Source of the DNA: Halovivax asiaticus JCM 14624
Lineage (GTDB): Archaea > Halobacteriota > Halobacteria > Halobacteriales > Natrialbaceae
Assembly: GCF_000337515.1 (NCBI RefSeq)
Contig: NZ_AOIQ01000023.1
Span: 2,592-66,591 of the forward strand
Direction of reading: 5' to 3'
Length of the DNA: 64,000 nt
Below, piece by piece: positions 30,648 through 33,600 of this stretch. Both the position numbers and the translations under genes were made by a program. The notes beneath the pieces are model-generated. The model searched no databases. It saw only the letters and a program-made list of their open reading frames with translations, and was not told the origin of the DNA. Position 1 is the stretch's first letter. Each line of letters begins with the position of its first letter.

Positions 30648-31229
30648 ATGTCAACAGAGGAATCCGGCCACGTCTATCGTCTCCACTCGACGCTCGAATT
30701 GCCCCTCGAGGAGCTCCACGATCACCTCGACGAAGCAACCTACCCCGACGGGATCGCCGACGTCGAACTCACGCGGCGTAACAACACGCTCATCCTCAAG
30801 GCGGACGCCGAGGACGAAAGCGTCAGTAAGTACACGCCGTCGGCCCAGCTCAAAGCCAGCGTGGTGGAGAACCGGGTCTACGAGGAGGATCCCGAAGAGC
30901 GCCGGAACGCCTTTCGCTGGGAGGACGACGAGGAAGAGGAGATCGAGTCCGAACTCGTCGAGTACGCAGCGTTCAAGGGCGATCGCGAGACCGTCCTCCA
31001 GAACTCCCTCCTCCAGTACGAGATGTTCCAGGTCCTCTGTGACATCGCCCAGCAGTCCGAGAAGGGCACCCTGACGGCCATCTCCGACCACGACGGAGAT
31101 CTCGAGGCCACCCGGATCGTCGACAGCGAGGTCCGCCCGGCGGACGTCGAAGTCGTCGAAGGCCCCCGCGACAGCACGGGCCAGTCCGGCGGCGTCAACT
31201 GGCGCGACAACAAATTCATCAGCGACTGA
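30648..31229 (+). CDS. Conserved haloarchaeal acidic protein of unknown function
   Basis: 193 residues, strongly acidic in the middle (EDDEEEEIESELVEYAAFKG). The N-terminal part (HVYRLHSTLELPLEELHDHL, ELTRRNNTLILKADAED) looks like a beta-alpha fold; the C-terminus VNWRDNKFISD is distinctive. No signal, membrane segment or metal site is seen. It lies 182 bp after the glutaredoxin gene. I recall similar haloarchaea-only proteins annotated with a DUF number but cannot name it with certainty. Confidence 0.75.
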   Translation: MSTEESGHVYRLHSTLELPLEELHDHLDEATYPDGIADVELTRRNNTLILKADAEDESVSKYTPSAQLKASVVENRVYEEDPEERRNAFRWEDDEEEEIESELVEYAAFKGDRETVLQNSLLQYEMFQVLCDIAQQSEKGTLTAISDHDGDLEATRIVDSEVRPADVEVVEGPRDSTGQSGGVNWRDNKFISD

Positions 31230-31603: not shown

Positions 31604-31880
31604 ATCAATTACTTATGTTATTCGGATAAGTAGATACCCCTCGTTTGCTACGCCCACTATTTGAGAGAACGGCGCGATCACTACCCAAATCTATATGGCG
31701 GTTAGTGAACCGTCGCGTGAACCTAGTTTGGCCTTGGGGATTAGCAATGCTAGCTGACTCATCAGTGGATAGCTTCTCCAATATTGACCAGCCGTTGTGT
31801 CCCACCGTGAATTGCCTTCTAGATCGAATGCGACTGATGGGCTCGTGACTTCTCCATTAATTCCACCTTCTAACCAGTAA
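31604..31880. other. Intergenic stretch without a supported gene
   Basis: A+T-rich DNA between the minus-strand membrane protein and the structured RNA. An open frame of 67 codons exists on each strand, but neither shows acidic bias or a domain. Sequence from 31994 to 32151 is likewise without a supported gene: an 83-codon frame (31904-32155) overlaps the RNA and ends with a 4-base overlap of the next gene, yet its composition is not haloarchaeal. Confidence 0.45.
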
Positions 31881-31890
31881 CTATATTATC
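31881..31890 (+). promoter_or_regulatory. TATA box upstream of the structured RNA
   Basis: CTATATTATC at 31881-31890 is a good archaeal TATA box. A start 25-27 bp downstream of its centre falls at 31910-31912, exactly at the first paired base of the structured RNA. No other gene begins at that distance. Confidence 0.55.
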
Positions 31891-31911
31891 CTTCACGTCA
31901 ATCATGCAGAC

Positions 31912-31993
31912 GGAAGCCCCGTCCGAAGGGTACGAAAGTGCCCCGGGTGCTGTAACACCCGAGACGTGGCTTCCAAATCCCCACCATGGGATT
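31912..31993 (+). ncRNA. Three-way-junction RNA candidate (possible IS200/IS605 right-end or omega-RNA-like relic)
   Basis: The outer stem pairs GGAAGCC (31912-31918) with GGCTTCC (31968-31974), continued after a C/T mismatch by CGTC/GACG (31920-31923 with 31963-31966). Two adjacent hairpins fill the junction: GGGTAC-GAAA-GTGCCC (31928-31943) and CGGGTG-CTGTAA-CACCCG (31944-31961). A fourth hairpin AATCCC-CACCAT-GGGATT (31976-31993) follows one base after the outer stem. A TATA box at 31881-31890 is correctly placed. The 3' ends of haloarchaeal IS200/IS605 transposons look similar to me, but no tnpB is present. The structure is seen directly; expression and identity are inferred. Confidence 0.5.
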
Positions 31994-32151
31994 GTGGTCG
32001 CCATGTTCCGAAACACACCATCGAGACAAAAAGGTCTCGCACGCCCGTTGCCTAGAGAGTCGTATCGCTACCCGTCGCTCACTTCAGCTTCTTGGGATGG
32101 GGGGCCGAGTCACGTCGATCAGTTCGATCCACAGAACTGCGAGGTGCTCGG

Positions 32152-32406
32152 ATGAAATCCGTCGAGCGAACGCGCGACGGGACCGGCGACGCGACTCCCG
32201 CCCGGGAGTGCTATCGGTGTGATCGGGACGTGGCACCATCACAGCTGTTCCGCGTCGATGTCGAGCCGCCGGACGCGCTGGCTCGTGAGTATCGGCCCTC
32301 GATGCGGTACTGTTGTCCGGACTGTGCGGCCGCGATGAACCTCTCCGAGTTCTCAGATTGGATGAAATCGCGACCGCGACGGGGTGTCGGGTCGGGAGGC
32401 GAGTGA
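32152..32406 (+). CDS. Small zinc-ribbon-like protein
   Basis: 84 residues. Four cysteines form two CxxC knuckles: CYRCDRD near residue 20 and RYCCPDCAAAMN near residue 57, enclosing FRVDVEPPDALAREYRPSM. This is the layout of small haloarchaeal zinc-finger proteins often placed near regulators; partners are unknown. The ATG at 32152 is selected because the zinc domain starts soon after and the upstream extension is basic. It may act alone, since the next gene is 350 bp away. Confidence 0.6.
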   Translation: MKSVERTRDGTGDATPARECYRCDRDVAPSQLFRVDVEPPDALAREYRPSMRYCCPDCAAAMNLSEFSDWMKSRPRRGVGSGGE

Positions 32407-32729: not shown

Positions 32730-32758
32730 TCATGTGGGTGCAGTCAAAAGGGTGCTGT

Positions 32759-32995
32759 ATGGTCGAGAACCCACGAAAAGCGTACAGTGCCCTTCTCGTG
32801 CTGGTGGCAGCAGCTGTTAGTGGCGTCATTATCGCGTCGGGATTCATCGCGCCGGAATTCATGGTGGAAGGCAACACCTTCTGGCTCTTCATCGGGGCCA
32901 TAGTGGTGATGATTGCCTGTGCGATCATCAGCTGGACCGTCAACCTCCCGTACATTATCGCAGAAGAATTTGCCGCCAACGGAGGGGACAACTGA
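32759..32995 (+). CDS. Small two-helix membrane protein in the HTH operon
   Basis: 78 residues with two membrane segments (ALLVLVAAAVSGVIIASGFI and FWLFIGAIVVMIACAIISW) and a C-terminus EEFAANGGDN. ATG 32759 (MVENPRKAY) is preferred to the earlier frame start at 32732, which would begin within the operator region. It overlaps the next gene by one base (TGATG), so the pair is translationally coupled. Function unknown. Confidence 0.65.
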   Translation: MVENPRKAYSALLVLVAAAVSGVIIASGFIAPEFMVEGNTFWLFIGAIVVMIACAIISWTVNLPYIIAEEFAANGGDN

Positions 32996-33393
32996 TGGTG
33001 AGGATACTACCACTAAAATACAATTTGCTTCTATTCGTAGTCACATCGCTCCTCTATCCCATTATTGGGTTACTGCTCGGTGAGCCATTTGCAAACCCAA
33101 CAATCGCAGATTTGACCGTGCTCCCTGCAGTTCTCCTTCTCTTCGCTAACCTCGGTTATCTCGCGCAGTCCCGGCGTGCGGAATCAGGGGTGGTTGATGA
33201 GCGTGACATGCAGAATATCGATCTTGCGCTAGCTGGTACTGGAATCGTCCTGCTCGTCTCGATCCTAACGATGTATGTCGGGTATGCGGCGACGGATACT
33301 GGCACCCCAACGGAGATCGATTATCTCGCGTTAGCAGCTGTCGGGACGATATTTGCCGTGCTGGGTGGGACGGAAGTCTATCAGCGTCTCTAA
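32995..33393 (+). CDS. Four-helix membrane protein paired with an HTH regulator (DUF2178-like)
   Basis: 132 residues, four membrane segments (LLLFVVTSLLYPIIGLLLG, LTVLPAVLLLFANLGYL, ALAGTGIVLLVSILTMYVGY, YLALAAVGTIFAVLGG). A soluble loop reads SRRAESGVVDERDMQNIDLA, where the DERD-type motif resembles the DUF2178/YdgT-type membrane proteins commonly encoded before small XRE regulators in bacteria and archaea. Coupled to the preceding gene and six bases from the HTH gene. The pairing suggests a membrane-linked control module; no substrate is known. Confidence 0.7.
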   Translation: MVRILPLKYNLLLFVVTSLLYPIIGLLLGEPFANPTIADLTVLPAVLLLFANLGYLAQSRRAESGVVDERDMQNIDLALAGTGIVLLVSILTMYVGYAATDTGTPTEIDYLALAAVGTIFAVLGGTEVYQRL

Positions 33394-33399
33394 CGGAAT

Positions 33400-33600
33400 A
33401 TGGACAACAATCTCCGGGTCAAACGTGCAGAGAGGGAAATTACCCAGCAAGAGCTCGCGGATGCAGTCGATGTAAGTCGGCAGACGATCTATGCGATAGA
33501 GAAATCGAAGTACGATCCGTCGTTGGAACTCGCCTTTTCTCTCGCGAACTACTTCGACTGTTCAATAGAGGACATATTCGACCCAGCTATCGACAACTAG
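33400..33600 (+). CDS. Small XRE-type helix-turn-helix regulator (YozG-like)
   Basis: 66 residues consisting almost wholly of an XRE domain: RVKRAEREITQQELADAVDV and SRQTIYAIEKSKYDPSLELA, then YFDCSIEDIFDP, the end typical of YozG-like stand-alone regulators. It should bind DNA as a dimer. It is the third gene of the operon with the two membrane proteins, and probably controls it through the inverted repeat at 32689-32729. Confidence 0.88.
   Translation: MDNNLRVKRAEREITQQELADAVDVSRQTIYAIEKSKYDPSLELAFSLANYFDCSIEDIFDPAIDN

Follow-up and report, generated by a model that had tools for sequence, protein, structure and literature searches.

A compact RNA fold preceded by a promoter-like element lies at the start of a pair of small genes in Halovivax asiaticus JCM 14624, and the question raised by this locus is whether the fold is an RNA in its own right or a part of the message that it precedes. 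The window analyzed here is a 64,000-nucleotide stretch of contig NZ_AOIQ01000023.1, and the RNA elements and the two ORFs that make up the locus lie on its + strand. A sequence-only reading had described an outer stem of 7 + 4 bp, two 6-bp hairpins, a GAAA loop, and a fourth hairpin, all of which are present base for base. The three-way-junction RNA (31912-31974), for which sequence, folding, and covariation agree, consists of the outer stem P1 (31912-31918 paired with 31968-31974 for 7 bp and 31920-31923 paired with 31963-31966 for 4 bp), the P2 hairpin (31928-31933/31938-31943, with the GAAA loop at 31934-31937), and the P3 hairpin (31944-31949/31956-31961), these helices being recognized from sequence and folding. 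It is followed by the P4 hairpin (31976-31993; AATCCC/GGGATT, 31976-31981/31988-31993), which is supported by folding and covariation and is located between P1 and the start codon. The TATA box expected before the first paired base is also found, as the TATA-box-like element ACTATATTA (31880-31888) about 25 bp upstream, recognized by its sequence and by a spacing that is kept in copies from the genus.

The AUG beyond P4 opens ORF1 (32003-32155 in the list of open reading frames), a putative leader peptide of 50 amino acids (MFRNTPSRQKGLARPLPRESYRYPS...) whose stop codon overlaps the start codon of ORF2 as ATGA. ORF2 (32152-32406) encodes an 84-amino-acid Cys-rich protein (CYRC...CCPDC) predicted from its Cys pattern to bind zinc, and the sequence ahead of it contains a Shine-Dalgarno-like GAGGTG (32141-32146). 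As judged from this layout, the RNA in the window forms the 5′ leader of a transcript that would carry both small genes and is not a free-standing molecule. The upstream neighbor (30648-31229) is a DUF7110 gene (PF23422, E value of 4.5e-94), and since a homologue of it also lies upstream of the element in genomes G001 and G003, the locus is anchored. Downstream, and outside the repeated unit, two predicted small membrane proteins and a helix-turn-helix (HTH) regulator are encoded (32732-33600).

The segment at 31904-32010 has a predicted folding energy of -51.4 kcal/mol, compared with -33.3 ± 3.9 kcal/mol for dinucleotide shuffles (z = -4.6); these and the other folding energies reported here apply to 37°C with standard parameters and ionic conditions, not to haloarchaeal molar salt. 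The minimum free energy (MFE) fold of the window copy is not the three-way junction. Rather, positions 32000-32005, which include the start codon, are paired with the 3′ strand of P1, so that this strand (CGUGGCUUCC) has two rival partners, namely, the 5′ strand of the outer stem and the GCCAUG around the start codon of the next ORF. We refer to its core, CGUGGC (31965-31970), as the switching strand, for which folding and covariation both indicate the two partners, and to the helix with GCCAUG (32000-32005), which hides the AUG, as the alternative (ALT) pairing, for which the evidence consists of the MFE fold, co-variation, and a shuffle control. The match of the covariance model R3 to the window (68.2 bits, E value of 4.8e-12) spans 31912-32005.

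The ALT pairing is available to nearly all of the copies. A contiguous ALT helix of at least 6 bp with the start region is found in 67 of 86 copies, compared with a mean of 11.3 and a maximum of 20 in shuffled controls; five of the 86 have no contiguous ALT helix longer than 4 bp. Where the 3′ strand of P1 lacks GGC, the GCC-AUG of the start region becomes AAGC-AUG (7/7 copies), and the class of the 3′ strand changes together with that of the start region (Fisher P = 2e-8, a value that ignores the relatedness of the sequences). In a set of 36 copies from beyond the window's family, the true partners form ALT helices with a mean of 6.72 bp, versus 4.97 ± 0.20 for permuted ones (maximum, 5.56), and P1 behaves in the same manner (8.17 versus 5.44 ± 0.23). 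Across the class, the three strands vary in a coordinated manner, as in GGCUUC/AAGCC, GGUCUUC/GAAGACC, GGGUUC/GAACCC, and GGUUGUC/GACAACC, with three-strand examples in copies L139 (GGAAAC/GGUUUCC/GAAACC) and L289 (AGACAA/UUGUCU/GACAAC) and in a Halalkalicoccus plasmid copy that had no part in model building (GACAGACC/GGUCUGUU/ACAGACC).

The fold itself is conserved as RNA. In the A5 alignment of 50 diverse copies, standard pairs occupy 92.6% of the cells, and 24 of the 26 pairs show double changes, which are the compensatory changes in homologues by which the sequence-only reading had proposed that a promoter-equipped structured RNA could be recognized. The covariation score is 0.425, compared with no more than 0.087 for slid partners and 0.124 for shuffled ones. 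P4 shows double changes at 7/7 pairs, with 79% of its cells paired. The A5 alignment was fitted to the covariance model, which biases these counts toward the model; an earlier MAFFT alignment, made without fitting to the model, is less divergent but also supports these helices. The junction contains invariant positions (GUG...CAC in P3), and across copies the P2 loop is A-rich and P3 is invariant. Among copies with a long P2 loop, 29 of 59 can pair at least four loop positions with the segment immediately 5′ of P2 (permutation mean of 17 and maximum of 25), which is suggestive of an H-type pseudoknot in which the conserved GAAA would be the third loop; candidates include the P2 regions of copies L092, L118, and L106. 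A near-perfect palindrome of variable sequence (e.g., CCAATTGCTACGTAGCAATTGG) is also seen between the TATA-like element and P1, within about 30 bp upstream of P1, in distant copies (L275, L279, L281, L283, L289, L290, L291, and L294). It may serve as a DNA operator or represent an additional 5′ hairpin, and if it is an operator, these genes would be controlled at both transcription and translation.

We consider a cis-acting, riboswitch-like translational switch of Halobacteria to be the best reading of this locus, with a probability of roughly four in five. Transcription would start just ahead of P1. In the ON state, the leader would fold as the junction P1-P2-P3, and because the junction occupies the 3′ strand of P1, the start codon would stay free, and ORF1 and the coupled ORF2 would be translated. 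In the OFF state, the start region (A/G)GCCAUG would instead be taken up by the 3′ strand of P1, and this helix would combine with P4 into a single long hairpin in which the AUG is buried. Translation would be turned on by a signal that favors the junction, be it a small molecule, an ion, or some shared RNA-binding protein, and in the window's family, ribosomes that finish ORF1 may then initiate on the overlapping ORF2. A conserved, structured leader domain ends at the start codon, and the computed folds that expose and hide the translation start are mutually exclusive. By predicted energies, the switching strand is paired with one of its two partners in 86/86 copies, P1 giving the lowest energy in 52 of these and ALT in 34, with a median difference of 1.5 kcal/mol. 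The two conformations are thus predicted to be nearly isoenergetic, as is characteristic of a bistable translational switch, and the near equality of the two states makes a translational on/off switch most likely.

The genes that follow the RNA bear on what the signal might be. In the window's family, ORF1 has a conserved N terminus (MFRNTPSRQKGLAR here and MIAYILPGYKRPAR elsewhere), and in 70 of 86 copies, its stop codon either overlaps the ORF2 start codon or lies directly beside it. The codon constraint on ORF1 is weak (ratio of 0.53, versus 0.63 and 1.26 in shifted frames); we therefore do not regard it as an ordinary coding sequence, and the case for its being real depends on the conserved overlap of its stop codon with the ORF2 start. 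The P5 hairpin within its codons 7 to 13 (32022-32039; CGAGAC-AAAAAG-GUCUCG), recognized by pairing across copies, forms in 80/86 copies. An exchange of G-C for A-U in P5 alters both of the encoded residues (Gly..Pro to Arg..Leu), indicating that RNA pairing, beyond protein, constrains this helix. Sequestration of the ORF2 ribosome-binding site was also considered and was rejected family-wide, given that the pairing probability of the Shine-Dalgarno sequence is 0.698, versus 0.694 in shuffled sequences. The ORF2 proteins are small and Cys-rich (CYRC...CCxxC, CxRC...CVDC, or CPxCG...PCGC), and an ORF of this zinc type lies downstream of 74/85 copies, compared with 12% of control places. ORF2 has no family above the cutoff in Pfam or NCBIfam and no convincing relative of solved structure by sequence. 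A predicted model of it (m9b6e67d4e0bb; pLDDT, 69.7) gave a best Foldseek E value of 0.023. Among the top rows of its structural alignments is eS26, a ribosomal zinc protein that sits at the mRNA exit channel (VIA; Z score of 5.2 over 63 residues at 3.3 Å, which is below the level that the tool considers meaningful). A translation-related role of ORF2 would be intriguing.

These products raise the possibility of an autoregulatory leader, in which the Cys-rich protein, or one paralogue of it, would set the switch by binding the junction in the mRNA that encodes it, much as ribosomal proteins act on their own leaders. The predominance of small, Cys-rich, predicted zinc-binding cargo in the family, the sequence-specific GUG...CAC kept in the junction, and the weak alignment with eS26 are what one would expect of such a system, although the last of these falls short of significance. 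However, the same RNA core precedes proteins of unrelated types (CYRC, CPxCG-PCGC, SWIM, and others), so a shared signal is favored over product-specific control, and we regard autoregulation as possible but rather doubtful. In other families, the AUG belongs directly to a SWIM zinc finger protein (PF04434) or to other small proteins; of 10 cargo proteins of distant copies that were scanned, 3 exceed the Pfam gathering threshold for SWIM and 1 is just below it. Outside the window's family, zinc-type cargo follows 12 of 33 copies by a strict pattern (7% in controls), and the link to zinc is therefore not universal. One SWIM gene in a Halalkalicoccus record (V1795_RS21470; NZ_CP144464.1; copy L305, 1399-1494) has an annotated start that coincides with the upstream end of the RNA. 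The annotated start is therefore probably misplaced, and our model would place the real one at the AUG closing the RNA, some 93 bp farther downstream.

The closeness of the two predicted energies would also suit a sensor that needs no ligand, such as an RNA thermometer or a salt sensor in which temperature or ionic strength shifts the balance between the states. However, a junction with an invariant P3 and an A-rich P2 loop exceeds what a melting hairpin would need, and we consider such a sensor improbable.

The RNA is both repeated and widespread. A DNA search yielded 24 matches in the genome of H. asiaticus itself and 22 to 26 in each of four congeners, with similarity that begins at the TATA-like element and runs for about 530 bp through the small Cys-rich gene. 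The covariance model R1 detects no fewer than 28 copies in this genome and as many as 32 in one congener, and 41 of the 61 genomes from the family contain a match. All of the named records that carry the core motif come from genera of the Natrialbaceae, e.g., Natrinema, Natrialba, Halopiger, Halostagnicola, and Halovivax, and matching loci such as L061 and L110 likewise point to the Natrialbaceae as the window's family. Five weak matches outside the family proved on inspection to be real relatives and were part of the material from which models R2 and R3 were built. With R2 (E ≤ 0.001), the RNA is found in 143 of 391 genomes of the class, and with R3 (E ≤ 0.0001), it is found in 169 of the 391 sampled Halobacteria genomes (43%), representing 63 of 86 genera. 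No occurrence was found beyond its own order in a 197-genome sample of the phylum, in which all 13 matching genomes belong to that order. Copies detected by R3 are also carried on named plasmids of Natrinema, Natribaculum, and Halalkalicoccus, and one region (G024:C1:1570917-1574253) is a tandem array with three copies in 3.4 kb. Genus g76, which belongs to another family (G209, G352, and G374), has undergone a separate amplification, with 4 to 10 copies detected per genome, depending on the model and filter, and the cargo of those that were read is a CxxC mini-protein. An origin in halophages or other viruses was considered and rejected, as neither the DNA nor the SWIM protein had a phage match and the core pattern was not in viral contigs.

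Many of these copies occupy conserved syntenic positions in related species. Two loci could be traced past one species pair, and in the more distant species they cluster with paralogues of their own species and not with their orthologues. This fits gene conversion among dispersed copies; alternatively, recent duplication may have replaced copies. Within each species, the members of this syntenic gene family appear to undergo concerted evolution. The number of similar dispersed copies per genome and the separate amplification in g76 might instead be read as marks of a mobile repeat, i.e., a MITE-like element or gene cassette with a structure that promotes its own movement. We find this very unlikely given that so many copies are syntenic across species, that the structure competes and co-varies with the start codon, and that species-wise clustering at syntenic loci is compatible with gene conversion.

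The sequence-only reading had suggested that the fold might be either a free small RNA or a stand-alone remnant of an IS605 right end or omega-RNA, for which the promoter-like element and the compact fold can be cited. Neither proposal fares well, and we give them only a slight chance. The inspected copies end at a start codon with which the outer stem competes and the start region co-varies, and this layout argues against a stand-alone small RNA. The element lies 5′ of small genes, whereas an omega-RNA would sit on the opposite side of the gene; there is no transposase among the listed neighboring ORFs or the five neighbors scanned against Pfam, and many copies are syntenic. In scans against Rfam 15, neither the full window nor the isolated element nor any of nine related loci scored above a gathering threshold, the best match in one such scan being 14.1 bits against a threshold of 112. 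As for the claim that no protein explains the RNA, it holds for the RNA itself but overlooks the coding unit that starts immediately downstream. The converse notion that 31904-32155 is one gene with incidental hairpins can be practically dismissed, since, although the frame is open through the RNA in the window copy, RNA length modulo 3 is evenly spread across copies, 26 of 86 copies have in-frame stops inside the RNA, and the pairs are compensated.

A fuller version of the preferred translational switch, in which the RNA would be a new, haloarchaea-confined class of ligand-sensing riboswitch that governs a large regulon of zinc-binding mini-proteins by start-codon sequestration, with a coupled leader peptide in one family and copies kept alike by gene conversion, is more tentative, and we would give it somewhat less than an even chance. 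The RNA also draws attention to how a largely unannotated group of small Cys-rich genes may be regulated. No prior description of it was found in the literature searched, the coverage of which largely leaves out subscription journals.

Among known systems, IS605 omega-RNAs, which derive from the 3′ end of tnpB, share with this RNA a compact hairpin structure but differ in location, neighbors, and co-variation, the RNA here, as judged by its listed and scanned neighbors, not being at the 3′ end of an IS605 or IS607 tnpB gene or tnpB remnant. The leaders of ribosomal-protein autoregulation likewise present a structure at the start codon of a small gene; here, however, the downstream genes are not ribosomal and encode several unrelated proteins. 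The closest likeness is to bacterial translational riboswitches, with which the RNA shares a conserved, folded 5′ leader domain, a strand common to that domain and a sequestering helix, and compensatory changes in both states. It differs in that it sequesters the AUG itself, is archaeal, occurs in dozens of copies per genome, and is without a known aptamer structure or ligand. The fluoride riboswitch of Thermococcus kodakarensis, described in 2021 as the only experimentally determined natural archaeal riboswitch (PMC8241225), is also an archaeal leader RNA thought to act on translation, but no Rfam family matches the present RNA and its downstream genes are not fluoride exporters. ORF2 resembles, by description only, the one-domain zinc finger micro-proteins of Haloferax volcanii (PMC10716476), which are likewise small haloarchaeal proteins with two Cys pairs, although ORF2 has no Pfam or NCBIfam match above the cutoff. 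A haloarchaeal start-site map indicated that translational control by structured leaders is not typical (PMC4983044). If confirmed, the switch would be a native riboswitch-like class in the very group where such control is thought to be atypical, and with two covarying states, a presence in 43% of the sampled Halobacteria genomes, and up to 32 copies per genome, it would be a clear exception to that view.
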